Positions 329 through 16,967 of a stretch of 64,000 nucleotides of DNA are shown here, piece after piece. The notes below the pieces were generated by a model, which made no database searches, was not told the origin of the DNA, and was given only the letters and a program-made list of their open reading frames with translations. Position numbers and translations under genes: made by a program. The stretch comes from a virus. The stretch's first letter is position 1. Each line of letters starts with the position of its first letter. Location of the stretch: positions 35,865 to 99,864 of IMG/VR virus record IMGVR_UViG_3300017991_000072; one strand, written 5' to 3'.

Positions 329-1095
329 CCGCTGTCCTCCGCTTCACCCCCTGGAACGGGGGTCTCTGGTTCGCTGGTTCCGTTCGTGTTCCCGCCTTCT
401 TCGTCCTCCCCCTCTTCTTCCTTTGGACGTTCCTTCCCGTTCAAGAGACAGTCAAAGGAAGTCCACAGCTCCGCGTTGATCTTGATGAACGCCTGTTCCT
501 CTTCCCTGGTGGTCTTCTCTTCCTCCACCAGCTCCGCCATCCTCCTGGACAGGATGGCGTTCTGGGCCGTCATGGTCTTGGCCGCGAAGGGAACACAGCC
601 GGTCAGAGTCAGCGCCAAGAGAAGGAGGCCCGTGGCCTGGGCCGCGAAGGCTGACGCCTTGGCCAGCTTCCTCTTCAGCCTTCTCTTCACCTTCGCCTCC
701 TCCTTCTTCTTCAGCTTCTTGACCATCTCCCTGGTCAAGTCTCTGTATTCGTCGGGGGTTGAAACGTAGACTTCCTCCGGCGGAGAGTGATATTCACACC
801 AGCCGTCTGACCCGTATTCTCTACAGATGTGGGTTCGTCGCTGTCTATGAATTGAACAGCGTCCCCGTTCAAGATACTGGCAAGGGATTCTGACGTAGAG
901 CGTCCAGGCTCCTTCTTCTGGTCTTCCTCCATCAGTCTCCGGAGTGAATCCAATGACTGTCTGTCCGTTTCTATACAGATACCAGAGGCCATATTCCCAT
1001 TCCTCCAAGGTGGTGGGCTTGTCCAGCTCCATTCCGAAATACTCACAACACCGTCCGCCACATTCAGGGGGACATCCACGGGGGTTCTGGGCCAT
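325..1095 (-). CDS. YkgJ-like cysteine-cluster protein with C-terminal membrane/lipoprotein-like segment
   Basis: 256 residues, start preceded by AAGGAGGAGACG. The N-terminal ~100 residues carry the CPPECGGRCC cluster plus later Cys residues (IPCQYLERGRC, HICREYGSDGWC), the pattern of the YkgJ/UPF0153 family, thought to bind Zn or Fe-S. After a basic linker comes a hydrophobic stretch with a lipobox-like LTLTGC near residue 165, then a charged, Glu/Pro-rich tail. A lipobox this far inside a protein is odd: either a fusion or a transmembrane anchor. It is co-transcribed with the protease. Family assignment is by motif; the function is unknown. Confidence 0.7.
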   Translation of the reverse strand: MAQNPRGCPPECGGRCCEYFGMELDKPTTLEEWEYGLWYLYRNGQTVIGFTPETDGGRPEEGAWTLYVRIPCQYLERGRCSIHRQRRTHICREYGSDGWCEYHSPPEEVYVSTPDEYRDLTREMVKKLKKKEEAKVKRRLKRKLAKASAFAAQATGLLLLALTLTGCVPFAAKTMTAQNAILSRRMAELVEEEKTTREEEQAFIKINAELWTSFDCLLNGKERPKEEEGEDEEGGNTNGTSEPETPVPGGEAEDSG

Positions 1096-1149
1096 CGTCT
1101 CCTCCTTGTCTTCGTGTAGGGATAGGTCTGGGGAAGTCTGTCAGGATCC

Positions 1150-1179
1150 ATAATACCCCAGAACAGTCCGGACCATCAA
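1150..1179 (-). promoter_or_regulatory. Leftward promoter for the protease/YkgJ genes
   Basis: On the minus strand TTGATG (1179-1174), an 18-base spacer and TATTAT (1155-1150). It lies about 55 bases upstream of the 1095 start and diverges from the rightward promoter at 1344. Inferred from sequence. Confidence 0.5.
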
Positions 1180-1224
1180 GCCGGGTTTGTCAAGGGGGTC
1201 CGGTTTCGCGTGTGGGATCCGGGG

Positions 1225-1263
1225 CCATGCTCCCCTCCCCTACCGTCCCGGACACACTATACT
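1225..1263 (+). repeat. Composite intergenic element, copy 1 (partial)
   Basis: Contains CCATGCTCC, then CCGTCCCGGA (1243-1252), then TATACT (1258-1263), in the same order and spacing as the fuller copies near 3.9, 6.9 and 8.25 kb. The TGTGG/CCACA dyad and GTCAAG part are missing. It lies between two divergent promoters, so an operator or activator role is possible. Confidence 0.5.
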
Positions 1264-1343
1264 GTAGGCCGCGCCCACGGACGCCCCCACATCTTGGGCC
1301 TGAAAAAAAGTTCTCCCTGGGTCATTTTTTCTTCATTTTTCTC

Positions 1344-1372
1344 TTGACAAATGGACGGGGATGGTTTAGACT
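1344..1372 (+). promoter_or_regulatory. Early rightward promoter P1
   Basis: TTGACA (1344-1349), 17-base spacer, TAGACT (1367-1372). Preceded by the T-rich block (CATTTTTTCTTCATTTTTCTC) shared by the early promoters, which resembles an UP element. An ATG lies 6 bases after the -10 box, in frame with the gene. Confidence 0.8.
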
Positions 1373-1420
1373 ATAGCCATGATGAACGAAGAAACAAACC
1401 CCAAACCCCAGGAGGCCAAG

Positions 1421-1672
1421 ATGATCACCCTGACAGACGAACAGATAGCCGTAGTGGCGGAAGCGGACAGCGTTCATGACTACGCCTGGTCCTACATCAC
1501 CATCAGGAAACAGACCGCGTCCTTCCAGCGGGCCTTCTACCTGGTGGAGACGATGGTTCACAAGGCTGAACACATGGAACTGGCGGAGGACCAGGTGTCA
1601 GGGCTCCAGGTGGCCACGGAATGGCTGAAACATGAGATCAAGAACGCGGGCCACCCAGTAGCCGGACTGTAG
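1421..1672 (+). CDS. Early small protein, unknown function
   Basis: 83 residues from the ATG behind CCCCAGGAGGCCAAG. The frame is also open upstream to ATG 1379, right at the predicted transcription start, which would add 14 residues (MMNEETNPKPQEAK). No recognised domain. The N-terminus (LTDEQIAVVAEAD) resembles that of the gene at 4517 (TEDQLAVIAEDD), so they may be distant paralogs. A GC-rich hairpin (about 1683-1709) separates it from the next gene. Confidence 0.75.
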   Translation: MITLTDEQIAVVAEADSVHDYAWSYITIRKQTASFQRAFYLVETMVHKAEHMELAEDQVSGLQVATEWLKHEIKNAGHPVAGL

Positions 1673-1731
1673 AACCCCACGGGCTCCCTGGGGATCACCC
1701 AGGGAGCCCAGAACCCCAGAAGGAGGACCCC

Positions 1732-1923
1732 ATGATACGGACGAAGAAAGCCAAGAAGGTTCTGACGAAGAAGGAACAGCGCCACCTGACAGAGTCCAAC
1801 ATACACACCATGGCCGCCATGGAGCGCCAGGTGGCCTTCCTGAAGACCTACGAAGGGAACCCCACCATCTATCCCTGTTGGGAGTGTAGGGCCATAGCCC
1901 GGAAGCTTGGTCTGATGGACTGA
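1732..1923 (+). CDS. Small basic protein with a CxxC
   Basis: 63 residues, start behind AGAAGGAGGACCCC. Lys/Arg-rich N-terminus and a single CWEC motif near the C-terminus. Second gene of the P1 transcript. Not recognised. Confidence 0.7.
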   Translation: MIRTKKAKKVLTKKEQRHLTESNIHTMAAMERQVAFLKTYEGNPTIYPCWECRAIARKLGLMD

Positions 1924-1939
1924 CGCCCAGGACCCCCGT

Positions 1940-1977
1940 GACCCCTGGAGAAAAAAATTCTCCAGGGGTCATTTTTT
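1940..1977 (+). terminator. Rho-independent terminator ending the P1 unit
   Basis: 13-bp stem (1940-1952 with 1958-1970) around an A-rich loop, followed by a T run at 1972-1977. It sits directly upstream of the next promoter's -35 box: the first of several near-identical terminator-promoter cassettes. Confidence 0.85.
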
Positions 1978-1990
1978 CTTCATTTTTCTC

Positions 1991-2019
1991 TTGACTTTTC
2001 TGGCTCCCTGGGTTACAAT
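1991..2019 (+). promoter_or_regulatory. Early rightward promoter P2
   Basis: TTGACT (1991-1996), 17-base spacer, TACAAT (2014-2019). An ATG at 2026 lies 6 bases downstream, in frame with the gene that follows. Confidence 0.85.
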
Positions 2020-2067
2020 AAGATCATGGAAACACAGAAAACACCCCAAACCCCCAAGGAGGAGACG

Positions 2068-2460
2068 ATGAACTGGACCAAAGAAATCAGCCAAGAGGCC
2101 GCTGACAAGGTGAAGAAGGCTGGCTACGTGGACCCCACAGCCAACCATCACCTGATCTCTGAAGCCGCCGCTGAAGCCCACACGATCCTGGGCCAGGAGA
2201 TCTTCCTGGCGAAGGACCACGCCTGTGAAGTCAGCGTCCAGATCCCCAAGACGATCACGGATGAATTCCAGGCCACCTATGACGCCTACAAGCTGATCAT
2301 GATGGAGATGGAAGCCATCCACCCGGCCAACAAACCAGAACTGACGCCCCAAGGCTATGACCGCCTGATGGCTGGCCTTCAGGAAAAGGCCGCGCCCCTT
2401 CGTTCCAAGCTTTACTCCCTGGAGATGGTCCTGGTGTCCATCGTCCAGGCCCAGATCTGA
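2068..2460 (+). CDS. Early protein, helical, unknown function
   Basis: 130 residues from the ATG behind AAGGAGGAGACG; the frame is open to ATG 2026 at the predicted +1 (14 extra residues, METQKTPQTPKEET). Mostly Ala/Glu/Lys-rich and probably helical. Not recognised. Confidence 0.75.
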   Translation: MNWTKEISQEAADKVKKAGYVDPTANHHLISEAAAEAHTILGQEIFLAKDHACEVSVQIPKTITDEFQATYDAYKLIMMEMEAIHPANKPELTPQGYDRLMAGLQEKAAPLRSKLYSLEMVLVSIVQAQI

Positions 2461-2527
2461 CGAACCACGGGGGAGGGACCACGGGGGTCCCTCCCCTTCC
2501 CCCAACCCCACAGAGGAGGACAAGAAG

Positions 2528-2962
2528 ATGAAAGCCACCAAGGACCAGATCAGAGGAATAGTAGGAGTCTTCCAGGACATCCTGGCCAAGGCGGAAGACA
2601 AGCTGAACACCAAGGAGATGGAGATGACAGAGCCCTACGCCCACTACACTCCCGCCAAGGACGGAGGGACCTACAGGGCTGTCTGTCTGAATGACCTTCC
2701 CAGTGAAGCCTTCCAGGCCATGGACTCCGCCACGGAGGCCGTCTCCCGCGCCAAGATGGTCATCAGGGAAGGACTCCGCTTCTGGGAATTGGGTCAGATC
2801 TCTGATGAAGACCTGGTCTTCAAGGCCGCCCAGGCCAACGTCAACCTGGCCATGGAGGCCGTGGACAAGGCCCTGGAAGCCCCCAACCCCAGGCCCAAGA
2901 CCAGGCCCAGGCCCATCAAGGCCAGGTTTGGGGAGACCAGGCCAGCGTTCCCCGTGTCATAG
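2528..2962 (+). CDS. Early protein with Pro/Arg-rich tail, unknown function
   Basis: 144 residues, start behind AGAGGAGGACAAG. Helical body, then a tail rich in Pro, Arg and Lys (NPRPKTRPRPIKARFG) that could bind nucleic acid. A stem-loop (GGGGAGGGACC pairing with GGTCCCTCCCC-like sequence, about 2468-2497) lies between it and the upstream gene. Confidence 0.75.
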   Translation: MKATKDQIRGIVGVFQDILAKAEDKLNTKEMEMTEPYAHYTPAKDGGTYRAVCLNDLPSEAFQAMDSATEAVSRAKMVIREGLRFWELGQISDEDLVFKAAQANVNLAMEAVDKALEAPNPRPKTRPRPIKARFGETRPAFPVS

Positions 2963-2971
2963 TTGACACAG

Positions 2972-3009
2972 CCCCCTGGTGAAAAAAAATTCGCCAGGGG
3001 GTCTTTTTT
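2972..3009 (+). terminator. Rho-independent terminator
   Basis: Stem 2972-2983 with 2990-3001 (one G-T pair), A-rich loop, T run 3004-3009, immediately before the next -35 box. Confidence 0.85.
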
Positions 3010-3022
3010 CTTCACTTTTCTC

Positions 3023-3051
3023 TTGACAAATGGGGGACCATGGTTTATAAT
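3023..3051 (+). promoter_or_regulatory. Early rightward promoter P3, full consensus
   Basis: TTGACA (3023-3028), 17-base spacer, TATAAT (3046-3051): a perfect sigma70-type match. In-frame ATGs at 3058 and 3061 begin 6 bases downstream. Confidence 0.9.
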
Positions 3052-3108
3052 AGAGCCATGATGAAGGAAGGAAACAAACCCCAAACCCCCCAAAAGGAGG
3101 AGGACCTG

Positions 3109-3519
3109 ATGATGACCCTTCAAGAAGCTACCGCTGGACTGATCGCTGGAACCGTGACCACGGATGACCTGAAGGTCCAAGGGTTCACGGCTGATGAACT
3201 GATCGCTGTGGTGGAGGCCATCCCGCCGTTCACAGGCTGTCCCTGTTGTTCGGATGAAGAGCCCGGCGCTGACTACGCGGACTTCAACATGTCCCTGTCC
3301 CGTCAGTTGGCCTTGGCTGACGTGAAGGTCTGTGGGTCCTGTGGAGCCATCCACGGAACCGTGGAGACCTGGGAAGCGGCCCACATGGTCTACCACCCCA
3401 CGATGGTGGCCAAGGCCACGGGGGAGGAGATCTACGTGGACCTGACGATCCGTTCAGAGAATGAACGGTTCCATGGCTGGATGGACTCCGCCACCAAGAA
3501 CCTGACCCAGGTTGGCTAG
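3109..3519 (+). CDS. Zinc-ribbon-like early protein
   Basis: 136 residues from the ATG behind AAAGGAGGAGGACCTG; the frame is open to ATG 3058 at +1. The two cysteine pairs TGCPCC and VCGSC, about 38 residues apart, look like a zinc ribbon. Function unknown. Confidence 0.75.
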   Translation: MMTLQEATAGLIAGTVTTDDLKVQGFTADELIAVVEAIPPFTGCPCCSDEEPGADYADFNMSLSRQLALADVKVCGSCGAIHGTVETWEAAHMVYHPTMVAKATGEEIYVDLTIRSENERFHGWMDSATKNLTQVG

Positions 3520-3593
3520 GACCTGGGAGGAAGCCAGGGAGGGACCCGTGGGTCCCTCCCTTCTTCGTTCAACCCCAAACCCAGGAGGAGACG

Positions 3594-3800
3594 ATGACCA
3601 GAGAAGAGGCCCAACGGATGGACCCAGAGGAGGCCAAGCTGAAGGCCAAGAGACTGGCCCAGGAAGCTGATGAACTGATCTCCAAGATGGAACTGGCCCA
3701 CCCCCATTCCCAACGCTACACTGAACTGTGGAACGAACTGACAGCCGTGGAACAGGAACAGCTAGTTCTGACCTGGGCTCCAGGCTACGGAGCCTGGTGA
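3594..3800 (+). CDS. Small helical early protein
   Basis: 68 residues, start behind CAGGAGGAGACG. Charged, predicted coiled or helical. Follows a GC-rich stem-loop (GGGAGGGACCC/GGGTCCCTCCC) at the cistron boundary. Not recognised. Confidence 0.7.
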   Translation: MTREEAQRMDPEEAKLKAKRLAQEADELISKMELAHPHSQRYTELWNELTAVEQEQLVLTWAPGYGAW

Positions 3801-3858
3801 CGGAATAGAGCCCAGGCCCTACCCCTGGCGAACGATCCAGGGGAGGGACCTGGGACGG

Positions 3859-3891
3859 GAGCCCCGGCGTTCAGACCGGGGCTCTTTTTTT
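3859..3891 (+). terminator. Rho-independent terminator
   Basis: 9-bp stem GAGCCCCGG/CCGGGGCTC (3859-3867 and 3876-3884) followed by seven T residues. Confidence 0.85.
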
Positions 3892-3907
3892 GTCTGGATC
3901 CCCTGGC

Positions 3908-3963
3908 CTATGCTCCGCCTCCGCACCGTCCCGGATGTGGTATTATCCCACCACAATGTCAAG
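3908..3963 (+). repeat. Composite intergenic element, copy 2
   Basis: Order: CTATGCTCC, CCGTCCCGGAT (3926-3936), TGTGG (3936-3940), 10-base spacer, CCACA (3951-3955), then GTCAAG (3958-3963). The TGTGG-N10-CCACA dyad and GTCAAG recur at the same spacing near 6.91 and 8.28 kb. Here the second half (CTTGAC) of the GTCAAG dyad is not preserved. Probably a binding site for a phage or host regulator. Confidence 0.65.
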
Positions 3964-4013
3964 AGAAGAGTGAAAAAAATTTCGTCTGGTGTCAAGATTT
4001 CTTCATTTTTCTC

Positions 4014-4043
4014 TTGACTTTTAGGATTGACCTGGGGTATAAT
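4014..4043 (+). promoter_or_regulatory. Early rightward promoter P4 with leader hairpin
   Basis: TTGACT (4014-4019), 18-base spacer, TATAAT (4038-4043). Unlike its neighbours it has a ~90-base leader with no ATG at +1. The leader begins with a perfect 7-bp hairpin (CAGTCAA/TTGACTG, 4051-4069) and ends in the C-rich ribosome-binding motif (4113-4130). Confidence 0.8.
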
Positions 4044-4137
4044 AGGGCCACAGTCAAGATAGTTGACTGGTTGAATTCGGATCTTTGACAACTGAATAAC
4101 GGACACAGAAACCCCCAAACCCCAAGGAGGGAAACCC

Positions 4138-4377
4138 ATGGACGTGTTCTCTGTTCTGATCATCGTGGCTGTGGTTCTGACCAAGGTGGAGGCCCTGGAG
4201 GACGCCCTGGAGGCTTCTGAAGCGGACTTCTTCCCCGCCCAGGTCCTTGTGGTCCTGGTGGCCAGGGACGCCCTGGTGGGAGCCCTGGCGGGCTTCCTGG
4301 AGACGGGAACGGGGCTCCAGGATCTCCTGGACGCGGCCCTGGACCTGGATGACGCCCTGGTCAAGCTGGCGAAGTAG
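4138..4377 (+). CDS. Small hydrophobic/acidic early protein
   Basis: 79 residues, start behind CCAAGGAGGGAAACCC. Starts with a hydrophobic stretch (VFSVLIIVAVVLT), then Leu/Ala/Asp-rich repeats; a membrane-associated helix is possible. Its leader matches the 6.65-kb candidate antisense RNA over 18 contiguous bases. Not recognised. Confidence 0.7.
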   Translation: MDVFSVLIIVAVVLTKVEALEDALEASEADFFPAQVLVVLVARDALVGALAGFLETGTGLQDLLDAALDLDDALVKLAK

Positions 4378-4382
4378 AAACA

Positions 4383-4420
4383 GACCCCCAGAGAAAAAAA
4401 TTCTCTGGGGGTCATTTTTT
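4383..4420 (+). terminator. Rho-independent terminator
   Basis: 13-bp stem (4383-4395 with 4401-4413), A loop, T run 4415-4420; nearly identical to those at 1940 and 5341. Confidence 0.85.
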
Positions 4421-4433
4421 CTTCATTTTTCCC

Positions 4434-4462
4434 TTGACTTTTAGGAATGGGTGGTTTATAAT
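4434..4462 (+). promoter_or_regulatory. Early rightward promoter P5
   Basis: TTGACT (4434-4439), 17-base spacer, TATAAT (4457-4462); in-frame ATG at 4469. Confidence 0.85.
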
Positions 4463-4516
4463 AGGGTCATGATGAACGAAGGAAACAAACCCCAAACCCC
4501 CAAGAAGGAGGAAACC

Positions 4517-4774
4517 ATGAACCAGATGACAACGAAGAAGAACGCGGGAAGAGACATGGTCCGGAAGGTGAAGGCGGAACAGATGTCCTTTGTGACGGAG
4601 GACCAGTTGGCCGTTATCGCGGAGGACGATGAAACCAGGATGACCCCCATCCTTGTCCGCTGTGGGAATGGACGCTTCACGTGTCCCGCCCAGAACGCGG
4701 CCTGGTTCATTGACATCATCACCAAGGAAGGGACGGACTACGTCAGGGACGCCTCCATCTACTCCAGCTACTAG
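4517..4774 (+). CDS. Early small protein, unknown function
   Basis: 85 residues from the ATG behind AAGAAGGAGGAAACC; the frame extends to ATG 4469 at +1 (16 more residues). The N-terminal half resembles the gene at 1421. Not recognised. Confidence 0.7.
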   Translation: MNQMTTKKNAGRDMVRKVKAEQMSFVTEDQLAVIAEDDETRMTPILVRCGNGRFTCPAQNAAWFIDIITKEGTDYVRDASIYSSY

Positions 4775-4788
4775 CCTGAACCCCTCCA

Positions 4789-4826
4789 GCCCCCCAGAGA
4801 AAAAAATTCTCTGGGGGGCCTTTTTT
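4789..4826 (+). terminator. Rho-independent terminator
   Basis: 14-bp stem (4789-4802 with 4807-4820) and T run 4821-4826, directly before promoter P6. Confidence 0.85.
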
Positions 4827-4839
4827 CTTCACTTTTCTC

Positions 4840-4868
4840 TTGACTTTCTTGACGGGGTGGGCTATAAT
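4840..4868 (+). promoter_or_regulatory. Early rightward promoter P6
   Basis: TTGACT (4840-4845), 17-base spacer, TATAAT (4863-4868); in-frame ATG at 4875, 6 bases downstream. Confidence 0.85.
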
Positions 4869-4922
4869 AAGATCATGGAAACAGCGAACAAACCCCAAAC
4901 CCCCAAACCCCAGGAGGACAGA

Positions 4923-5327
4923 ATGTCAGTCACACAGTTCAGCGCGGAAGCCGTTTCCCAGATGGCCCACAGCATAGCCGCCCACGCCCGTCTTGATGAA
5001 GAGTTGGCGGAGATCATCCTGGAGTCCAAGGCGGCCCACCACGCTGGCCGCGTGGAGTTCAACCTGGACACGGATGACGTTTCCTTCAAGCTGGTCCACT
5101 ACATGAGGCTGTCCAACCTGGTGGCCTACTCCATCCAATACCAGGAGCCCATGGTTCCCGTCTACACCATTGATGACTACTACGGGGAACCCCTGGTGGC
5201 CAAGGAGCTGGCGGAGGAAATTGACCACTGGATCTACAACGTCCAGACCAACGCGGGGACCGCCCTGGTGGACCCGCTCTGGTTTGAACTGTTCCAGGCT
5301 GTCAGGGACCACCTGGCCGCGAAGTAG
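4923..5327 (+). CDS. Early protein, unknown function
   Basis: 134 residues from the ATG behind CCAGGAGGACAGA; open upstream to ATG 4875 at +1. Mixed helical/strand composition and no recognised motif. Sole gene of its terminator-promoter cassette. Confidence 0.75.
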   Translation: MSVTQFSAEAVSQMAHSIAAHARLDEELAEIILESKAAHHAGRVEFNLDTDDVSFKLVHYMRLSNLVAYSIQYQEPMVPVYTIDDYYGEPLVAKELAEEIDHWIYNVQTNAGTALVDPLWFELFQAVRDHLAAK

Positions 5328-5340
5328 CCCACGGCCTCCA

Positions 5341-5378
5341 GACCCCCAGAGAAAAAAATTCTCTGGGGGTCATTTTTT
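5341..5378 (+). terminator. Rho-independent terminator
   Basis: 13-bp stem (5341-5353 with 5359-5371), T run 5373-5378. Confidence 0.85.
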
Positions 5379-5391
5379 CTTCATTTTTCTC

Positions 5392-5420
5392 TTGACTTTT
5401 CCCCGGGGATGGGTTACAAT
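5392..5420 (+). promoter_or_regulatory. Early rightward promoter P7
   Basis: TTGACT (5392-5397), 17-base spacer, TACAAT (5415-5420); in-frame ATG at 5427. Confidence 0.85.
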
Positions 5421-5468
5421 AAGATCATGGAAACAGGAAATCAACCCCAAACCCCGAAGGAGCCCAAG

Positions 5469-5699
5469 ATGAAGATGAACCCCAACGGATCAGTCAGTTT
5501 CAGCTATGAAGAGATCGTGGCGGCGGCGGAAGAGACCAAGAAGGCGGAAGCGGCCCGCGCCAACGCGCCCATGATGGCCGTCAGCTATGAAACCCCCGTA
5601 GGGACCTTCAAGGACTGGATCAAGGCGGCGGAGCGCGTGGAGGCTTTGGACATGGACCCCGTGGAGGTCATCAAGGTAGTCAGAACCCCTATCAGCTAA
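5469..5699 (+). CDS. Early small protein, unknown function
   Basis: 76 residues. The ribosome binding site is weaker than usual (GAAGGAGCCCAAG), and the frame is open to ATG 5427 at +1. Ala/Glu-rich; not recognised. First of three genes on the P7 transcript. Confidence 0.7.
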   Translation: MKMNPNGSVSFSYEEIVAAAEETKKAEAARANAPMMAVSYETPVGTFKDWIKAAERVEALDMDPVEVIKVVRTPIS

Positions 5700-5766
5700 G
5701 GACAGGAACCACGCCCCCCCAGGATCCCCTGGGGGGCCAACCCCAACCCCAACGAAGGAGGACACG

Positions 5767-6165
5767 ATGAACAGACAAGCCAAGATCCCCCAGGAGATGG
5801 CCACCTACCTGGTGGACGCGGAGGACAAAGGCTGGACCGGTGGCCAGGTGACCAGGTGGGTCCGGAACTGGATGAAGGACCTAGTCTGGGATGACAAGGA
5901 CCCCCTGGGGGAGTCCGTGGCCGTGACCGTCCCCTGTTCCCTGGTGGACCAATACGGGAAGCTGATGGCCAAGGAGGACGAAGTCAGGACCTTGATGGAG
6001 ACCAGAGCCCAGACCCTTGGCCTGGTGTCCTGTGACCCCAGGTCTGAAGAGTACAGGGAGACCAGGAGGAAACACCTGAACCTAGTCAACGCCCTGGACA
6101 TGGTCAGGGAGTCCAGGAGGAACCTGGAAGACGCCATGACCTGGGTCCTGTTGGCCCAACTGTAG
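5767..6165 (+). CDS. Early protein, helical, unknown function
   Basis: 132 residues, start behind GAAGGAGGACACG. Long charged helices in the second half. Preceded by a boundary hairpin (CCCCCCAGG/CCTGGGGGG-type, about 5714-5738). Confidence 0.75.
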   Translation: MNRQAKIPQEMATYLVDAEDKGWTGGQVTRWVRNWMKDLVWDDKDPLGESVAVTVPCSLVDQYGKLMAKEDEVRTLMETRAQTLGLVSCDPRSEEYRETRRKHLNLVNALDMVRESRRNLEDAMTWVLLAQL

Positions 6166-6216
6166 ACGAACCCAACGCGGCCCCCTGGGGAGACCTGGGG
6201 GGCCAAGGAGGACCCC

Positions 6217-6522
6217 ATGGAAGGACAAGAACCCAAGATGGTCTCCGTCATGGTGGCGGAGAAGCTTCTACAGGATTATGACACGGCCTTGATGGGAGCC
6301 AGGAACATGGAGGGACGCCTATTGAACGCTGAACAGTGTCTTCTCCAGTCCGTCCTGGACTGTGACCAGGAAGCCTATGAAGAGGCCCTGGCCCAGAGGG
6401 ACAGGGTCCAGGCTTCTCTGGACCTGGCCAAGAACCAGGCGGCGGCCCTGTCCGTCACGATAGCCAAGAAGGCCCTTCAAGACTGGATGACCCCAGGGAC
6501 TCCAGTCTTCCCAGAGGATTGA
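6217..6522 (+). CDS. Early protein, helical, unknown function
   Basis: 101 residues, start behind CCAAGGAGGACCCC. Predominantly helical, Ala/Gln-rich. Last gene of the P7 unit; its 3' untranslated region holds an anti-leader hairpin and a terminator. Confidence 0.7.
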   Translation: MEGQEPKMVSVMVAEKLLQDYDTALMGARNMEGRLLNAEQCLLQSVLDCDQEAYEEALAQRDRVQASLDLAKNQAAALSVTIAKKALQDWMTPGTPVFPED

Positions 6523-6523
6523 A

Positions 6524-6581
6524 CCACGGGTCCTCCCGTGGGTTTGGGGTGGGGCTCCCCCAGGGGTGGGGGAGCCCCTTT
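6524..6581 (+). promoter_or_regulatory. Operon 3' UTR: hairpin with TCCT loop, anti-leader G tract, terminator
   Basis: Hairpin CCACGGG-TCCT-CCCGTGG (6524-6541) is followed by GGTTTGGGGTGGGG and an 11-bp terminator stem (6551-6561 with 6568-6578) with a short T tract. The TCCTCC-plus-GGTTTGGGG part is the reverse complement of the early-gene ribosome-binding leader. A module of identical layout lies at 16263-16324. Confidence 0.7.
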
Positions 6582-6584
6582 CTA

Positions 6585-6613
6585 TTGACTTCAGGCGGAC
6601 CATGGTCTACACT
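6585..6613 (+). promoter_or_regulatory. Promoter of candidate small RNA 1
   Basis: TTGACT (6585-6590), 17-base spacer, TACACT (6608-6613), placing the start near 6620. No open reading frame with a ribosome binding site follows before the terminator. Confidence 0.75.
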
Positions 6614-6619
6614 GAAGCC

Positions 6620-6703
6620 TGATCCACAGGGAACGGCGGGGCTTCCCCGTCCTCCTTGGGGTTTGGGGTAGGGGTCCAGGAGGGGTCCTGGACCCCTCTT
6701 TAT
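6620..6703 (+). ncRNA. Candidate small RNA 1, antisense to the shared early leader
   Basis: About 84 nt from the predicted start to a terminator (stem 6671-6681 with 6686-6696, loop GGGG, then TCTTTAT). A small hairpin (6637-6649) is followed by GTCCTCCTTGGGGTTTGGGG (6649-6668), the exact reverse complement of the consensus early leader CCCCAAACCCCAAGGAGGAC. It pairs over 18 contiguous bases with the leader of the 4138 gene (4113-4130), and with a bulge or mismatch to most others. No protein is encoded. The likely job is to block ribosome access to early mRNAs or to trap them. The existence of the RNA is inferred from sequence only. Confidence 0.65.
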
Positions 6704-6716
6704 ATTGTGGTTCTTC

Positions 6717-6745
6717 TTGAACAGCTCCCCCACATGTGGTATGGT
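6717..6745 (+). promoter_or_regulatory. Promoter of candidate small RNA 2, palindrome in spacer
   Basis: TTGAAC (6717-6722), 17-base spacer, TATGGT (6740-6745). The spacer ends in the perfect palindrome CCACATGTGG (6730-6739), which also occurs at 7003-7012 and 8354-8363, so this promoter may be repressed by a protein binding there. Confidence 0.5.
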
Positions 6746-6751
6746 GGAACC

Positions 6752-6840
6752 TGCTAGGGCTGACTTGGTGTCCGTACCAGCGCCGGGTCACTCTGTTTCC
6801 TCCTTTGGGCTCCCCACGCGCCACGGGGAGCCCTTCCCTT
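6752..6840 (+). ncRNA. Candidate small RNA 2 with anti-Shine-Dalgarno segment
   Basis: From a predicted start near 6752 to a hairpin GGGCTCCCC/GGGGAGCCC (6807-6815 with 6825-6833) followed by TTCCCTT. Just before the hairpin is TTTCCTCCTTTGGG, complementary to AAAGGAGGAAA-type ribosome binding sites. No credible open reading frame. Weaker than RNA 1 because the terminator T tract is interrupted. Confidence 0.45.
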
Positions 6841-6880
6841 CTATGTTCCACGTGAAACCCTGACTCCCTGGACCCCCGGG

Positions 6881-7018
6881 CCATGCTCCGGCCGGAGACC
6901 GTCCCGGATGTGGTATTCATCCACCACAACGTCAAGTCCCCACTTGACACGCCCCCCTTCCTCCTCCCCCCTGGTTATGCTCCCCCCAGGAAATCCGGGA
7001 CACCACATGTGGTATACC
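6881..7018 (+). repeat. Composite intergenic element, copy 3 with second half
   Basis: CCATGCTCC, CCGTCCCGGAT, TGTGG (6909-6913)-N10-CCACA (6924-6928), then the perfect dyad GTCAAGT-CCCC-ACTTGAC (6931-6948). Downstream is a second TATGCTCC (from 6976), an inverted ATCCGGGAC and the palindrome CCACATGTGG (7003-7012). Gene-free; probably a regulator-binding region upstream of the 7.1-kb promoter. Confidence 0.65.
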
Positions 7019-7079
7019 CACGGCCACGGACCCCCTACATTTTGTGGTGTCATATAGCGAATTTTTCTACACTGAACCC

Positions 7080-7109
7080 TTGACAACAGGGGGTCCCCTG
7101 GTGTATATT
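7080..7109 (+). promoter_or_regulatory. Rightward promoter P8
   Basis: TTGACA (7080-7085), 18-base spacer, TATATT (7104-7109). Lacks the T-rich upstream block of P1-P7. In-frame GTG (7121) and ATG (7127) precede the ribosome-binding-site start at 7166. Confidence 0.7.
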
Positions 7110-7165
7110 AGGGGTAGATAGTGAGAATGAAACGGACCCCAGAACCCCAAACCAAGGAGGACAGG

Positions 7166-7552
7166 ATGAACGCAAGAACCAACGATGACTTCAGGAAGGA
7201 AGGAACCAGGAAGGCCACGCTGGCGTTCCTTTCCGCCCTGACAGAACAGGAGGAAAGCGGAGAACCCCCGGCCATGTTCATGATCTGTCAACAGAAGAAC
7301 CCCATCACGGGACGGAGGAATGAAGTCAGGTTGACGGCCGGTGTTCAGGCCATGGGAGCCATAGCGGCCGGTCACGTCCTGAAAGCCGTTCATGACTTTG
7401 ACACCTTCACAGAGGATAATGACCCCTACGGGGAACATGACTTTGGGATCGTCAGGATGGAAGGGGAAACCCTGAACTGGAAGATTGATGACTACCAGGG
7501 CTATGATGGGATTGAATTGGTCCTGACCATCATGACGGCCATGGAATACTAG
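7166..7552 (+). CDS. DUF3768 family protein
   Basis: 128 residues from the ATG behind CCAAGGAGGACAGG. The family's conserved blocks are visible in order: NDDFR near the start, VRLTAGVQA, HDFDTFTEDNDPYGEHDFG, NWKIDDY and the C-terminal VLTIMTAMEY. The family is mostly known from Proteobacteria and plasmids; no biochemical function is established. First gene of a three-gene unit. Confidence 0.85.
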   Translation: MNARTNDDFRKEGTRKATLAFLSALTEQEESGEPPAMFMICQQKNPITGRRNEVRLTAGVQAMGAIAAGHVLKAVHDFDTFTEDNDPYGEHDFGIVRMEGETLNWKIDDYQGYDGIELVLTIMTAMEY

Positions 7553-7613
7553 AAACCCCAGGGAGCCCGGCCACGGCCGGGCTCCCACCACCCCCCAAAC
7601 CAAGGAGGACAGA

Positions 7614-7877
7614 ATGGACCCCATCACGAACCCAAGACCCACCACCCACCAATGGAAGGAAGGGGACAGGGTAGCCTTTTCTAAAGCCTTCCTCCGCAAC
7701 ACTGGCCAGTGTGACTATGAAACGGCCAGAGGCCGGGGGACCATCATCAGCGTGGCCCCCGTGGGGGACCTGACCATAGCGTCTATCAGATGGGACGGGA
7801 TAGGTCTGGTCACTAACGTCAACGTGTTGAACCTGTCCCTGGTCACCAGGGACGGGGTAGTTCAGGACAGGGACTAG
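7614..7877 (+). CDS. SH3-like small protein
   Basis: 87 residues, start behind CCAAGGAGGACAGA. The body (GDRVAFSKAFLRNTGQ, then GRGTIISV, ASIRWDG, VNVLNLSLV) has the strand pattern of small phage/plasmid SH3-like proteins often annotated as hypothetical. Separated from the upstream gene by a strong stem-loop (GGGAGCCCGGCC/GGCCGGGCTCCC). Confidence 0.7.
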   Translation: MDPITNPRPTTHQWKEGDRVAFSKAFLRNTGQCDYETARGRGTIISVAPVGDLTIASIRWDGIGLVTNVNVLNLSLVTRDGVVQDRD

Positions 7878-7937
7878 GAAGTCACCAGGGAGCCCTGGCG
7901 CTGGCCGGGGCTCCCACCCCCACCCAAGGAGGACAGG

Positions 7938-8177
7938 ATGGATCTGGAACGCTACAGGGTCTTCACAGCCCAGAAATTCATGGCCATGACCACGGGGGAA
8001 CGCCAGAGGACAAAGCCCACCATGATGTTCAGCCGGGAATACCTGGCCCTGGCCCTGGCGCTGGCCTCTGAAAAGGTCATCATCTATGACGCCCAGGAAG
8101 ACCTGGCGTGGCATTGTGGGGACCTGGTCACGAAGGCGGGATGGTACGATGGGAGCGGACAGCTAGTCAACCCGTAG
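7938..8177 (+). CDS. Small protein, unknown function
   Basis: 79 residues, start behind CCAAGGAGGACAGG. Contains an Ala/Leu-rich helix (YLALALALASEK). Preceded by a boundary stem-loop. Not recognised. Confidence 0.7.
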   Translation: MDLERYRVFTAQKFMAMTTGERQRTKPTMMFSREYLALALALASEKVIIYDAQEDLAWHCGDLVTKAGWYDGSGQLVNP

Positions 8178-8248
8178 CCCTTCACCGGGGACCTGGTGAA
8201 GGGGTCCCCTTGGTTAGCCGGTCCCGGGGAAACCCGGGGCCGGTCTTT

Positions 8249-8400
8249 TTATGCTCCCCTCTGGCCCCGTCCCGGATTGTGGTATACTGTATCCACAATG
8301 TCAAGCCCTGGCTTGACGGGCCGTCTGCTAATCCACGAAAAGCCGGGACGGCCCCACATGTGGTAGGCCCCGTCCACCACCCCTATATTTTGTGGTGTCC
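8249..8400 (+). repeat. Composite intergenic element, copy 4 with inverted half
   Basis: TATGCTCC, CCGTCCCGGATTGTGG, TGTGG (8278-8282)-N10-CCACA (8293-8297), then a perfect 18-bp dyad GTCAAGCC-CT-GGCTTGAC (8300-8317). It is followed by TCTGCTAATC and an inverted CCGGGACGG, the palindrome CCACATGTGG (8354-8363) and TATTTTGTGGTGTC. The TCTGCTAATC...CCGGGACGG half is closely matched at 18088-18113 inside the 17.1-18.8 kb gene. Confidence 0.65.
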
Positions 8401-8427
8401 GTGGGCGTCTTTTTCTTCACTTTTCTC

Positions 8428-8457
8428 TTGACAAAAGGGGAACGCCGGGCGTATAAT
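8428..8457 (+). promoter_or_regulatory. Early rightward promoter P9 with leader hairpin
   Basis: TTGACA (8428-8433), 18-base spacer, TATAAT (8452-8457), behind the shared T-rich block. The leader has no ATG but starts with a perfect 7-bp hairpin GCTGAAC/GTTCAGC (8468-8486), like the P4 leader. Confidence 0.85.
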
Positions 8458-8518
8458 AGACCTGTAAGCTGAACAAAGGGTTCAGCGAAACCCCAACCCC
8501 CAACCAAGGGAGGACAGA

Positions 8519-8716
8519 ATGTTGGTAGCGTGTTACAAGACCAAGAAGGCTTTGAAGGAAGCCGTGGGACAGGCTCTTCTATATGAAGAGACTTCCTTGT
8601 TCGGGGAGGAATACCGCCCGGACGGGACGTTCCCAGTGGTAGGCCCCGGGGCCTATGAGCGTAAATGGTACGCGGAAGTTACCATGAAGGGAGGGAAGAT
8701 CCACAAGGTCAAGTAG
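8519..8716 (+). CDS. Conserved small protein of phage/plasmid type
   Basis: 65 residues, start behind CAAGGGAGGACAGA. The layout (YKTKKALKEAVGQ, EETSLFGEEY, GPGAYERKWYAEV) matches a small widespread protein I have seen in phages and plasmids without assigned function; recognition is from memory of the pattern. Confidence 0.75.
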   Translation: MLVACYKTKKALKEAVGQALLYEETSLFGEEYRPDGTFPVVGPGAYERKWYAEVTMKGGKIHKVK

Positions 8717-8775
8717 GAACCTGAACCGGCCCGGGGCTCCGGCCCCGGGCCATTCTTCCAACCAAGGGAGGAACC

Positions 8776-9060
8776 ATGAACACACAAGAGACCCTAGAAT
8801 TCACTGGACACCAGATGGCCCGGGCCAATACGGTCCTGTCAAGCCTTGACGGAGCTGGCCCTATGTCCGTCTGTAAAGCCGCCGCCGTGGCCCAGAAGGC
8901 CAACCAAATAGCGGAAAGCCTACCAGCCCTTGACAAGCTGGCCGGACACCTTGAAAGCCATCCTGATGACCCCGTGGCCCTTCTGGCCGTTCAAGCCTAT
9001 ACCGTGGCCGTGGGCGTCCACCTTGACCTTCTGGAACTGACCCTTCAAATGACCCTATAG
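8776..9060 (+). CDS. Small helical protein, unknown function
   Basis: 94 residues, start behind AAGGGAGGAACC. Helical, Ala/Leu-rich. Last gene of the P9 unit. Confidence 0.7.
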   Translation: MNTQETLEFTGHQMARANTVLSSLDGAGPMSVCKAAAVAQKANQIAESLPALDKLAGHLESHPDDPVALLAVQAYTVAVGVHLDLLELTLQMTL

Positions 9061-9094
9061 CCTCCCCCCAGGGGGGAGGAATTCCCCCTTGGTT

Positions 9095-9130
9095 GGCCCC
9101 GGTCCCTTCTGGGACCGGGGCCTTTCTTTT
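9095..9130 (+). terminator. Rho-independent terminator
   Basis: Perfect 12-bp stem GGCCCCGGTCCC/GGGACCGGGGCC (9095-9106 with 9111-9122) then TTTCTTTT. Confidence 0.9.
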
Positions 9131-9274
9131 GTCAACCCCAGACTTGACATAGTGGTGTGCAAATGTCATTTTCCGTCCCGGACGTTGACCGTTTCCCAGG
9201 GCTCCCAGAGCGGAGCGGAGCGGAGCGGGTCCCCGTAGGGGACCACGGCCCCCGTCCCATCCGGGACGGGGGCC
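9131..9274 (+). repeat. Composite element, divergent copy, with GAGCG tandem repeat and 12-bp dyad
   Basis: Imperfect dyad GTCAACC/ACTTGAC (9131-9148, 18 bp as in the other copies), CCGTCCCGGACG (about 9172-9183), a pentanucleotide run of GAGCG units (9208-9228) and a perfect 12-bp inverted repeat GGCCCCCGTCCC/GGGACGGGGGCC (9247-9258 with 9263-9274). Gene-free. No T tract follows the dyad, so it is more likely an operator than a terminator. Confidence 0.5.
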
Positions 9275-9367
9275 GGGAACCGCATAGAGAGAAGAGACCG
9301 GAACCGGACCCGGCCGGACCCACCTGAAAAAAAATTCGCGGGAGGACGTTTTTTCTTCACTTTTCCC

Positions 9368-9396
9368 TTGACTTTCGTTCTGGGATGGTTTAGAAT
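9368..9396 (+). promoter_or_regulatory. Early rightward promoter P10
   Basis: TTGACT (9368-9373), 17-base spacer, TAGAAT (9391-9396), behind the T-rich block; in-frame ATG at 9406. Confidence 0.85.
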
Positions 9397-9447
9397 AGGG
9401 GTGTAATGAGGAAACGAAACACACCCCAAACCCCGAAGGAGGCCAAG

Positions 9448-10362
9448 ATGGCAACACAGAGCGGACAGGACAAGGTTTTCCAGATCTTCACAGACCAGAT
9501 CATGGACATGTTGGAAGAGGGGACGGTCCCCTGGCGTCAACCTTGGAAGGGCGGGAAGATCCCCATGTCCTTCCAGACCAAGCGGCCCTACCGTGGGATG
9601 AACGTCTGGTTCCTGAACAGCGTGGCCATTCATCGCGGCTACACATCCAACTGGTGGGTGTCCCTGAAGTCAGTGAAGAAGGCCAAGGGCTGGATCAAGG
9701 ACGATGAATTCAAGAAGTCAGTGACCGTGATCTTCTGTAGGCCCAAGCGGTACGAAGTGGAGACGGACGAAGTGGACGAACAGGGCCAGCCGGTCAAGGA
9801 AGAGCGGATGTCCTTCATCTACTTCTACCACACGGTATGGAACATGGACCAGGTGGAAGGGATGACGGCCCCTGACGCGGACCAGGACGCGGAGGAGCGG
9901 ACCCCCAACCAGATCCTTGAAGAGGCCCAGGCCATCATTGACGGCTACCAGAACGGCCCAGAGATCAGCCACGGCGGGACCAGGGCTTTCTATCGTCCCT
10001 CTGATGACTCCGTGACGGTCCCAGAGATGGAACTGTTCCAGGACAGCGAGAACTACTACCACGTGATGTATCATGAACTGGCACACTCCACGGGTCACGG
10101 TTCCCGCCTTGGGCGGAAGGGAGTCATGGACCTGACCATGTTTGGATCCCATGACTACTCCAAGGAGGAACTGGTGGCGGAGATGGGAGCGGGCTTCCTG
10201 GGAGCCCTGGTGGGACTGACCCCCAGGACCATTGACAACACGGCGGCCTACATCCAGTCCTGGCTGAAGGCCCTGAACGATGACAAGCGGCTCCTGGTCT
10301 ACGCGGCCAGCAAAGGCCAGGCGGCGGCGGAACACATCCTGGGCGTGACCTGGGAAGGATAA
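9448..10362 (+). CDS. ardC: ArdC-like antirestriction protein
   Basis: 304 residues from the ATG behind CGAAGGAGGCCAAG; open upstream to ATG 9406 near +1. The N-terminal domain (VPWRQPW near 27-33, RPYRGMN, NWWVSLKSVKKAKGW) is the ssDNA-binding DUF1738 part of ArdC. The C-terminal part is a zincin-like metallopeptidase with HELAHSTGH (His209, Glu210, His213), followed by the usual YSKEELVAEMGA helix that should supply the third ligand. Known ArdC proteins protect incoming plasmid or phage DNA from type I or II restriction, so early expression makes sense. Family assignment is firm; activity is inferred. Confidence 0.92.
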   Translation: MATQSGQDKVFQIFTDQIMDMLEEGTVPWRQPWKGGKIPMSFQTKRPYRGMNVWFLNSVAIHRGYTSNWWVSLKSVKKAKGWIKDDEFKKSVTVIFCRPKRYEVETDEVDEQGQPVKEERMSFIYFYHTVWNMDQVEGMTAPDADQDAEERTPNQILEEAQAIIDGYQNGPEISHGGTRAFYRPSDDSVTVPEMELFQDSENYYHVMYHELAHSTGHGSRLGRKGVMDLTMFGSHDYSKEELVAEMGAGFLGALVGLTPRTIDNTAAYIQSWLKALNDDKRLLVYAASKGQAAAEHILGVTWEG

Positions 10363-10437
10363 CAGGGAGGAAGCCTGGGAGTCCCACAGTGGGGCTCCCA
10401 GGCCCTTCAAACCCCAAACCAGAAGGAGGACAGAACG

Positions 10438-10911
10438 ATGGAACAGACAGACTACACAGCGGACAGAGAACTGGCGGTCAAGGCCCTGGAACAGATGGAC
10501 TACATCCACCTGGAACGCGGACAGGTGGCGGCCCTGGTGGACACCTACCGGGTCATCACCACCCATAACCCTGGCGCGGTCCCAGGCCATGAAGAGGAAC
10601 TAGGGACCCTGGCCGGGCTCCTGGTCATGAGCGTAGGAACTGGCGTCAAGCTGATCCCAGAGGACGGACCCCCCAACGTCCGGGTGGGAGTCCCCAGGCT
10701 CCTGGTGGAAGCCATCAAGGACATCAACATCCAGAGGGACAAACTGGCGGCCTACAAGGAGGAACACAAGGACGGAGGAGGACCAATAGACCCCAAGTCC
10801 ATGGAAGTCCTGGAGGCCCAACAGGCTACCCACAGGGCGGCCCTTTCCACGGCCCTGGTCAACGTCATCATCACGGACTTGGCTGGAATGGCGGACGCTG
10901 GAAGCTACTAG
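10438..10911 (+). CDS. Helical protein, unknown function
   Basis: 157 residues, start behind GAAGGAGGACAGAACG, downstream of ardC on the same transcript after a boundary stem-loop (GCCTGGGAG/CTCCCAGGC). Mostly helical; not recognised. Confidence 0.75.
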   Translation: MEQTDYTADRELAVKALEQMDYIHLERGQVAALVDTYRVITTHNPGAVPGHEEELGTLAGLLVMSVGTGVKLIPEDGPPNVRVGVPRLLVEAIKDINIQRDKLAAYKEEHKDGGGPIDPKSMEVLEAQQATHRAALSTALVNVIITDLAGMADAGSY

Positions 10912-10928
10912 ACTGACCCTCCCCCACA

Positions 10929-10968
10929 GAGCCCCGGCCCGGTTCGTCCGGTCCGGGGCTCTTCTTTT
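10929..10968 (+). terminator. Rho-independent terminator
   Basis: Stem GAGCCCCGG/CCGGGGCTC (10929-10937 with 10953-10961), extended by an inner pairing, followed by TTCTTTT. Its T tract runs into a TATGC...CGTCCCGGAT composite motif (10968-10995). Confidence 0.85.
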
Positions 10969-11004
10969 ATGCGGGCCGGGACTAGCGTCCCGGATATACG
11001 CCAT

Positions 11005-11033
11005 TTCCCACGGTCCCCATCACGTGGTAGACT
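11005..11033 (+). promoter_or_regulatory. Probable rightward promoter P11
   Basis: TTCCCA (11005-11010), 17-base spacer, TAGACT (11028-11033), immediately downstream of a partial composite element (TATGC at 10968, CGTCCCGGATATAC at 10986-10999). Weak -35, so it may need an activator. In-frame ATG at 11038. Confidence 0.45.
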
Positions 11034-11052
11034 ATGGATGAAAGGAGATCCC

Positions 11053-11355
11053 ATGACCTACACTCTATCCCAGGCGGGGACGGCCTACGCTGAAGCGGCG
11101 GCCACGTGGGCCAGGGCTATGGAAGCGGAGGAGGCGGTCAGACAAGAAGGCCCTGACCTGAAGGTTGACAAGTTCCTCCACGTGACGGCCTTGTCCACAG
11201 TGATCCGCCAGGCTATGAACGGCCTGTCCCAGGCTGTCATGATCTTCATCTGGCGAAACAACGAAGGGAACCACGCGGTCCTGGAAGCGGCCATGGCGGA
11301 GACTATCCGCGTGACGGCGGACGCCAACGCCCTTATGGACTCCTACGGATACTGA
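11053..11355 (+). CDS. Helical small protein, unknown function
   Basis: 100 residues from the ATG behind AAAGGAGATCCC; ATG 11038 is in frame upstream. Ala-rich and helical. Single-gene unit between two terminators. Confidence 0.7.
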   Translation: MTYTLSQAGTAYAEAAATWARAMEAEEAVRQEGPDLKVDKFLHVTALSTVIRQAMNGLSQAVMIFIWRNNEGNHAVLEAAMAETIRVTADANALMDSYGY

Positions 11356-11363
11356 ACCCCCTG

Positions 11364-11448
11364 GACCCCTGGGCCACCAATGACTGTTTATTAACCCTGA
11401 ACTGTCATTCTGTTGTTACCGGTTATCAGGCCCAGGGGTCTTTTCTTT
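11364..11448 (+). terminator. Terminator with an unusually long loop
   Basis: Perfect 12-bp stem GACCCCTGGGCC/GGCCCAGGGGTC (11364-11375 with 11429-11440) then TTTTCTTT. The 53-base loop is AT-richer than its surroundings and contains its own AATGAC/GTCATT dyad, as if sequence was inserted into the loop. Confidence 0.7.
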
Positions 11449-11545
11449 CCCCCACGCGGGCGCGGGCGGGCGCGTGGGCGCGTATACGCGGGCGCGGGGC
11501 TCCTGAAAAAAGTTCTCCCAGGGCGTTTTTTTCTTCACTTTTCTC

Positions 11546-11574
11546 TTGACATCCGTGGACGGGTCCCCTATAAT
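11546..11574 (+). promoter_or_regulatory. Early rightward promoter P12, full consensus
   Basis: TTGACA (11546-11551), 17-base spacer, TATAAT (11569-11574); in-frame ATG at 11582, 7 bases downstream. The upstream sequence (11450-11500) is an alternating GC-rich run. Confidence 0.9.
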
Positions 11575-11626
11575 AAGGACCATGGACACAGCGACAAACC
11601 CCAAACCCCAAACCACGGAGGACAAC

Positions 11627-11965
11627 ATGTCCACACTGAACGCCCTTGGAACCCTTCTCTACAGCCTCCCCGTTCCCACCCGTCACGCCTACACCATCAC
11701 CATCTGTGACCAATACCAGGACACAGAGCCTACCACCTGTGTGGTCAACGCGGAGACCCAGGGCGCGGCCCTGGCCAAGGCTGTGGAGGTCTACTCCACA
11801 GAATTCTACGGCCACGCGGTCACCCTGGACCCCCAGGTCCTTCATGACGCTGTCACCGTCATCTTCCATCCTGACGGCGGCGTGAACCCCGTGGGGTTCT
11901 TCGCCAGTGACCCCCAACCCATCCGCCTTCAGCGCCTTGGGGACCCTGTCCCCTTGTCCGCGTAA
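11627..11965 (+). CDS. Early protein, unknown function
   Basis: 112 residues from the ATG behind CACGGAGGACAAC; open to ATG 11582 at +1 (MDTATNPKPQTTEDN). Mixed alpha/beta composition; not recognised. Confidence 0.75.
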   Translation: MSTLNALGTLLYSLPVPTRHAYTITICDQYQDTEPTTCVVNAETQGAALAKAVEVYSTEFYGHAVTLDPQVLHDAVTVIFHPDGGVNPVGFFASDPQPIRLQRLGDPVPLSA

Positions 11966-12031
11966 GCGGACCCCCTGGGGGGTGGGAATTCTCCCACCCC
12001 CCGGCTGGAACCCCAAACCCAGGAGGACATC

Positions 12032-12232
12032 ATGGACCAAGTCAAGAAGAGCCTGACCAAGAAAGCCCTGAAGGCCAAGCTGAACCAAGCCAGGGAAGAG
12101 CTGACCTACCTGGAGGACTTCCTGGCGGGACCCTGTTGTGTGTCCCACGCGGAGATTGACGCGGCCGGGGATGACACCTACAGGCTTCAGAAGGAGATCA
12201 GGGAGCTGAAGGAGGCCCTGGCGGCCCTGTGA
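12032..12232 (+). CDS. Small coiled-coil protein
   Basis: 66 residues, start behind CCCAGGAGGACATC, after a stem-loop boundary. Two helical segments around GPCCVSHAEID; could form a helical hairpin. Not recognised. Confidence 0.7.
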   Translation: MDQVKKSLTKKALKAKLNQAREELTYLEDFLAGPCCVSHAEIDAAGDDTYRLQKEIRELKEALAAL

Positions 12233-12272
12233 TCTTTTTTTCGTCAGGCGGCGTTTTTTCTTCACTTTTCTC

Positions 12273-12301
12273 TTGACAAAGCCTGAAGGATGGTTTACAC
12301 T
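12273..12301 (+). promoter_or_regulatory. Early rightward promoter P13
   Basis: TTGACA (12273-12278), 17-base spacer, TACACT (12296-12301), behind the T-rich block; in-frame ATG at 12308. No terminator stem precedes it, so the upstream unit may read through. Confidence 0.85.
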
Positions 12302-12346
12302 TACACCATGGACACAGACCGCAAACCCCAGACCCAGGAGGACACG

Positions 12347-13147: not shown

Positions 13148-13177
13148 CCCCAACCCCCAGGACAGGAGGAAGGAACG

Positions 13178-15606: not shown

Positions 15607-15615
15607 GAGCCCAAG

Positions 15616-16246: not shown

Positions 16247-16262
16247 AGAGTCTACATGAAGC

Positions 16263-16324: not shown

Positions 16325-16439
16325 ATGGGGGCGGGGGTCTTGACGCTGGTGGCGTGAAGTGGATAGGCTGTCAACATTGGCGGGAAGACTGGGCCTGGCG
16401 GGGACATACTACCTGTGGGGGGTAGTGAAGGAGGACAGG

Positions 16440-16961: not shown

Positions 16962-16967
16962 GGACCT

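Follow-up and report, generated by a model that had tools for sequence, protein, structure and literature searches.

The window analysed here is a 64,000-nucleotide stretch, bases 35865-99864 of the 99,864-base record of an uncultivated phage. Its first 16,500 or so bases carry about 27 small genes on the plus strand, grouped into roughly a dozen units that have strong sigma-70-like promoters, and the minus strand carries nearly all other genes. Over positions 1-17200, both strands included, 23 promoter-like sites were found versus 3.4 expected. We refer to the plus-strand block as early, a label taken from this layout. The record also contains terminase, portal and tail genes, a UvsX/RecA-like gene and a family A polymerase. 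Because one contig (G002) joins the right end of the window (64000) to the left end of the record (the start of L057), the genome, about 100 kb in size, is probably a circle or a circularly permuted molecule. When the window was searched with Rfam at the gathering score, only a tRNA matched; a single tRNA-Glu gene (TTC) lies at 31073-31145 on the minus strand. Several repeated elements punctuate the early region. Near-identical terminators (CCCCAGAGAAAAAAATTCTCTGGGG) at 1938-1972, 4383-4413, 4789-4819 and 5341-5371 are directly followed by the next promoter (TTTTTTCTTCAYTTTTCTCTTGAC), forming a terminator-promoter cassette repeated between early genes. Imperfect palindromes of the forms GTCCCGGATGTGGTAT..CCACAA.GTCAAG and ACATGTGGTA recur at 3926-3960, 6898-6932 and 8270-8305, as well as at 6733, 7006 and 8357; they sit upstream of the plus-strand promoters at 4014, 7080 and 8428 and are candidate operators for a phage repressor.

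Three modules built to one plan, all on the plus strand, occupy 6524-6585 (S1), 6649-6705 (S2) and 16262-16326 (S3); this is the strand of the early genes, and the U tails lie on it. In each module the anti-Shine-Dalgarno (anti-SD) stretch GTCCTCC and a linker UUUGGGGU precede a terminator, whose 12-bp stem is capped by a GGGG loop and followed by a short U-rich tail; after GUCCUCC the modules continue with CGUGGGUUU, UUGGGGUUU or UGUGGGGUUU. S1 starts directly 3′ of the TGA stop of the gene at 6217-6522, and the preliminary description of this operon end as a hairpin CCACGGG-TCCT-CCCGTGG followed by a linker and a terminator agrees with the sequence. The hairpin (CCACGGG-UCCU-CCCGUGG in RNA) spans 6524-6541, with its arms at 6524-6530 (CCACGGG) and 6535-6541 (CCCGTGG) and its TCCT loop at 6531-6534; the anti-SD stretch is at 6530-6536, the linker GTTTGGGGT (GUUUGGGGU in RNA; 6542-6550) is complementary to ACCCCAAAC of the early leaders, and the terminator covers 6551-6585, with the stem-loop at 6551-6578, the GGGG loop at 6563-6566 and then the U-rich tail. 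The operon ending in S1 has its promoter at 5392-5420 on the plus strand (TTGACT-N17-TACAAT), and between it and 6585 there is no further plus-strand promoter-like site. In S3, the hairpin CCCACAGG-UCCU-CCUGUGGG (16262-16281) is followed by the linker GUUUGGGGU (16282-16290) and by a terminator at 16291-16326 (12-bp stem, GGGG loop at 16303-16306, tail) that forms the 3′ end of the last early operon.

S2 differs in having a plus-strand promoter-like site of its own at 6585-6613 (TTGACT-N17-TACACT), a consensus match only (9/12), with a predicted start near 6620. Its core GTCCTCCTTGGGGTTTGGGGT (6649-6669), 18 nt of which are perfectly antisense to the leader at 4113-4130, is followed by the terminator at 6670-6705 (12-bp stem, GGGG loop at 6682-6685, tail), and from this arrangement S2 could be a stand-alone RNA of ~85 nt. 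S1 and S3 end operons and have no internal promoter-like site; they would therefore have to be processed from the mRNA or else act while still joined to it, and the earlier idea of a small RNA derived from the 3′ UTR is plausible for both. The presentation of TCCT in a loop, proposed from S1, applies to S1 and S3, where UCCU forms the loop, and does not extend to S2: in the predicted full-length fold the first hairpin of S2 is shifted and weaker, and the anti-SD stretch lies largely inside a stem. Beside S2, at 6844-6859, TGTTCCACGTGAAACC differs by 1 mismatch from the ParB site parS (TGTTNCACGTGAAACA) and could point to partitioning or to a decoy. The stretch 6743-6840, where CTGTTTCCTCCTTT precedes a terminator-like hairpin, was considered as a possible fourth RNA and rejected for its poor leader pairing (-18.8).

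The modules were more stably folded than 200 shuffles of each (z of -3.2 for S1, -4.3 for S2 and -5.2 for S3), and in the whole record GGGG-tetraloop hairpins (≥8 bp, ≤1 G-U pair) were confined to these three places. The pattern GTCCTCCNNNGGGTTTGGGGT has 2 exact forward matches in the 99,864-base record, and its reversed control has 0. In the three-way alignment the invariant elements are GTCCTCC, GGGTTTGGGGT and AGGGGT, the last being the terminator loop with its closing pair; in the terminator stem, by comparison, 6 of the 12 pairs show compensatory changes and 0 are broken. Constant loops and linker together with varying stems are the pattern of an RNA that works through its loops and linker rather than through its stems. 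This comparison rests on three copies in one record, and since the modules probably descend from a single ancestral copy, their agreement weighs less than three independent cases would.

Read antisense, the module sequence GTCCTCC-GGGUUUGGGGU matches ACCCCAAACCC-GGAGGAC, the leader sequence that precedes nearly every early gene from 1421 to 13178. Across this span 14 leaders have CCCCAAAC upstream of the SD, and most of the rest have a close variant such as CCCCAACCCC; the genes at 11053, 14424, 15616 and 16440 have no match to the modules. The matched leaders, all on the plus strand and given here with the gene start that each precedes, are 1391-1420 (1421), 2038-2067 (2068), 3079-3108 (3109), 4108-4137 (4138; the 18-nt perfect match to S2), 4487-4516 (4517), 4893-4922 (4923; best duplex energy with the S1 and S2 cores), 5439-5468 (5469; leader of S1's own operon), 7136-7165 (7166), 8489-8518 (8519), 9418-9447 (9448), 11597-11626 (11627), 12317-12346 (12347) and 13148-13177 (13178), together with a weak one at 8746-8775 (8776). 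Intercistronic leaders are found at 1702-1731 (1732), 2498-2527 (2528), 3564-3593 (3594), 5737-5766 (5767), 7584-7613 (7614), 7908-7937 (7938), 10408-10437 (10438) and 12002-12031 (12032), with a weak one at 6187-6216 (6217). The gene at 9448-10362 in this set is ArdC-like (phrog_7245, 2e-65), an anti-restriction function. Three internal operon genes that bear the motif (3594, 10438 and 12032) lack promoters, which ties the motif to the initiation of translation and not to promoters. Conservation of the leader as a peptide alone was considered and rejected: the C4A3C motif occurs in two frames (1421 and 11627 versus the others) and also precedes genes without an upstream start.

The G tracts might be conserved for a reason other than leader pairing, namely as an RNA G-quadruplex (G3-4 UUU G4 U(A) G4 N7-8 G4) or as a 3′-terminal site for protein binding, and four G runs with similar spacing do occur in all three modules; yet folding with quadruplexes allowed still yields the hairpins, the quadruplex falling short in stability, and such a role leaves unexplained both GTCCTCC and a UUU spacer that is the exact complement of the leader AAA. 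We regard this explanation as very improbable.

We measured the complementarity without reference to the motif by scanning plus-strand positions 1-17000 in 30-nt windows (2,834 in total) for mean pairing with 24 early leaders. The top three sites were S2 (-43.3 kcal/mol), S3 (-41.1) and S1 (-40.5), against a background over the same strand and range of -15.9 (sd 4.2) kcal/mol; stretches upstream of 12 other terminators gave means of -12.5 to -24.4 over the same leaders, and elsewhere in the record the top score among 15,052 windows on both strands was -32.1. As partners of the module cores, early leaders far surpassed 61 putative minus-strand gene starts (Mann-Whitney p about 2e-10 to 4e-10), whereas a host-type anti-SD alone did not separate early from minus-strand leaders (p 0.10). 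Leaders and modules are G/C-rich, which generally inflates duplex energies and is controlled in part by dinucleotide shuffles, of which 0 of 400 for each module core matched the observed mean pairing. When the modules are folded on their own, weak pairing joins the linker G's to the U tail; the early leaders are mostly weakly structured by prediction. Net of self-structure, the medians were -12.4 to -13.4 kcal/mol for early leaders and -1.8 to -2.8 for minus-strand ones (p 4e-7 to 1e-6), a comparison made with a smaller, cleaner control set than the 61-start test and with the same result. Despite self-structure, leader pairing is favoured by 7-22 kcal/mol for most targets, and the spacing from the anti-SD stretch to G4U3G in the modules is within the range of that from GGAG to C4A3C in the leaders.

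The preliminary description had matched the G tract of S1 to the C-rich leader at 5432-5465; the pairing itself holds, but this leader is not the sole match, as almost every early leader matches. It had also proposed that the 3′ hairpin and G tract might pair in cis with that leader on the same mRNA, which would close the transcript and silence its first gene. S1's own leader contains ACCCCAAACCCC and is predicted to pair (-28.9 kcal/mol, -15.7 net); ranked by duplex energy, though, this leader (start 5469) is the weakest of S1's 23 matched partners, the best reaching -43.7, and after subtraction of self-structure it is about average (-15.7 within a range of -3.7 to -18.8). Moreover, the short predicted unit of S2 holds neither an early gene nor a leader, and the leader of the S3 operon (12347) matches S3 well but not uniquely. 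Trans action on the leader set explains more than cis action does, and we do not favour the latter, which appears highly unlikely. Three modules in place of one, the promoter-like site of S2 and complementarity to the whole early gene set extend the preliminary description.

A different question is how the complementarity arose. Reverse-complemented, each module shows a hairpin, then ACCCCAAACCC, then GGAGGAC, an order also seen in intercistronic units such as those at 3536-3594 and 11975-12032, and when the modules were compared with the window by BLAST, minus-strand leader matches were among the main ones. Origin of the modules by inversion of an intercistronic unit (hairpin, C-rich leader, SD) is likely, and such an origin is compatible with antisense function. 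The modules might then be terminators that now only terminate, with the complementarity as a relic. A relic should decay, however, and loop and linker are identical in the three copies while the stems vary; beyond the leader/SD motif, BLAST within the window found no longer stretch common to the modules and any present intercistronic unit, and no module heads a minus-strand gene. Because the bases that are kept are those that pair, we consider mere relics the less likely account, and an unlikely one overall.

Our preferred reading, with a probability of roughly 60%, takes S1, S2 and S3 as one family of antisense (anti-SD) small RNAs, encoded by the phage and directed in trans against its own early mRNAs. 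What computation on the sequence shows is how the modules are built, that compensatory changes alter the stems while loop and linker stay invariant, and that the complementarity exists and is confined to early leaders. Beyond this, the RNAs may exist as such, S1 and S3 may be released, and all three may act in trans, probably repressing translation as early transcripts build up. S1 and S3 would be formed as early-operon 3′ ends, each module ending in a terminator, and S2 would probably be transcribed from its own promoter. Pairing with the ACCCCAAACC..GGAGGA leader that about 20 early genes share would involve the anti-SD loop UCCU(CC) and the linker UUUGGGGU, perhaps also the GGGG loop of the terminator, and would cover the ribosome-binding site and block initiation. 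S1 and S3 would in this way report early transcription and then damp or end early translation, and S2 could give a steady level; as S1 and S3 would be produced with each pass through the early operons, the outcome would be negative feedback on early translation. More tentatively, and at somewhat less than even odds, we suggest an early riboregulon, in which early transcription yields, as by-products, a small family of the phage's own anti-SD RNAs, a common leader marks nearly all early genes as their targets, and RNA feedback lets the early programme bring itself to an end.

The leaders themselves have a further feature. After the -10 box of nine early promoters there is an in-frame ATG (at 1379, 2026, 3058, 4469, 4875, 5427, 9406, 11582 and 12308), located 6 nt past the box in seven cases and otherwise 7 nt or 9 nt past it, which is the expected transcription start. 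The frame is open from this ATG to the internal, SD-driven ATG and encodes peptides like METANKPQTPKPQEDRM, so that leaderless starts are predicted to give N-terminally extended early proteins. Such an AUG is present in 9 of 12 promoter-proximal leaders. The antisense RNAs could be imagined to pair with early mRNAs and yet protect or activate them, for example by opening leader structure, or to choose between the 5′-terminal in-frame AUG and the internal AUG. The open frames, beginning 6-9 nt past the -10 box in those 9 of 12 leaders, suit a choice of start, and a duplex over the SD would spare the 5′-terminal one; as to activation, there is little to open because the leaders are mostly weakly structured, and the SD itself is covered by the pairing, which is normally repressive. 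Taken as a replacement for repression this reading is quite unlikely. Within the riboregulon reading, pairing may also shift initiation from the internal SD start to the 5′-terminal in-frame AUG and so alter the N-terminus of early proteins.

In searches for relatives, the module pattern retrieved 52 stretches from IMG/VR, of which 0 were module-like and 0 had repeated leaders, and 3 matches from GTDB, all unrelated. Three early proteins used as queries found no relatives, and the ArdC-like protein found distant relatives only. Relatives of the polymerase were found in G001, G002, G003 and G007 (93% identical), all of which end before the early region, and none was found in GTDB. Among covariance model hits, Guanidine-II on the minus strand of S3 scored 26.2 bits against a gathering score of 32; the loops of this motif read ACGR, those of the hit AGGA, and it was rejected.

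Several described RNAs act by means comparable to those proposed here. The sX13 RNA of Xanthomonas uses C-rich loops that act on G-rich sites near starts (PMC3771888). The sX12 family (RF02231) resembles the modules in having a UCCUC hairpin followed by a linker and a terminator, and S3 aligns to it at 32.6 bits; this is far below the gathering score of 106, and S1 and S2 have no sX12 match. SisA-D of Caulobacter are sibling RNAs with a common 10-mer carrying an anti-SD signature and probably overlapping targets (PMC12559287); they are bacterial and directed at host genes, whereas the modules are predicted to target the phage's own early genes. Among phages, the P1 c4 RNA blocks the ant ribosome-binding site, with a complement that is probably borne on a loop (PMC12197685), and the modules are likewise complementary to the ribosome-binding site of their targets. 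The c4 RNAs of P1 and P7, sar of P22 and OOP of lambda are also phage antisense RNAs on phage mRNAs; each is described as acting on one gene, whereas here three RNAs match the leader of about 20 genes. In the open-access literature and the accessible part of a phage-RNA review, we found no phage RNA set aimed at an early-gene-wide leader; known phage antisense RNAs mostly serve single genes, and early shut-off is usually credited to proteins. If the present reading is true, a common leader and matched phage RNAs would form a programme-wide RNA switch with no need of a repressor protein, and other phages can be searched likewise for terminator-proximal sequence antisense to a repeated leader.

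A further parallel is with the alpha-r14/NfeR1 ("cuckoo") RNAs of rhizobia, whose hairpins carry an identical unpaired anti-SD motif on differing stems and which repress at the translation initiation region (PMC10746234). The modules have the same combination of an identical unpaired motif and divergent stems, the first hairpin of S2 being the shifted and weaker one. In contrast, alpha-r14/NfeR1 are host chromosomal stress RNAs with the motif CCUCCUCCC, which the modules lack, and alpha-r14 has three hairpins with an anti-SD motif in each, where the modules have one anti-SD hairpin and a GGGG-loop terminator; the modules are also phage-encoded, with an added G-rich linker specific for the phage leader. 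Given what is described for NfeR1, sX13 and P1 c4 RNA, a block of initiation is to be expected from an RNA that covers the leader motif and the SD. By analogy, the modules would work like alpha-r14/NfeR1, SisA-D, sX13 and P1 c4 RNA, while being members of none of these groups.
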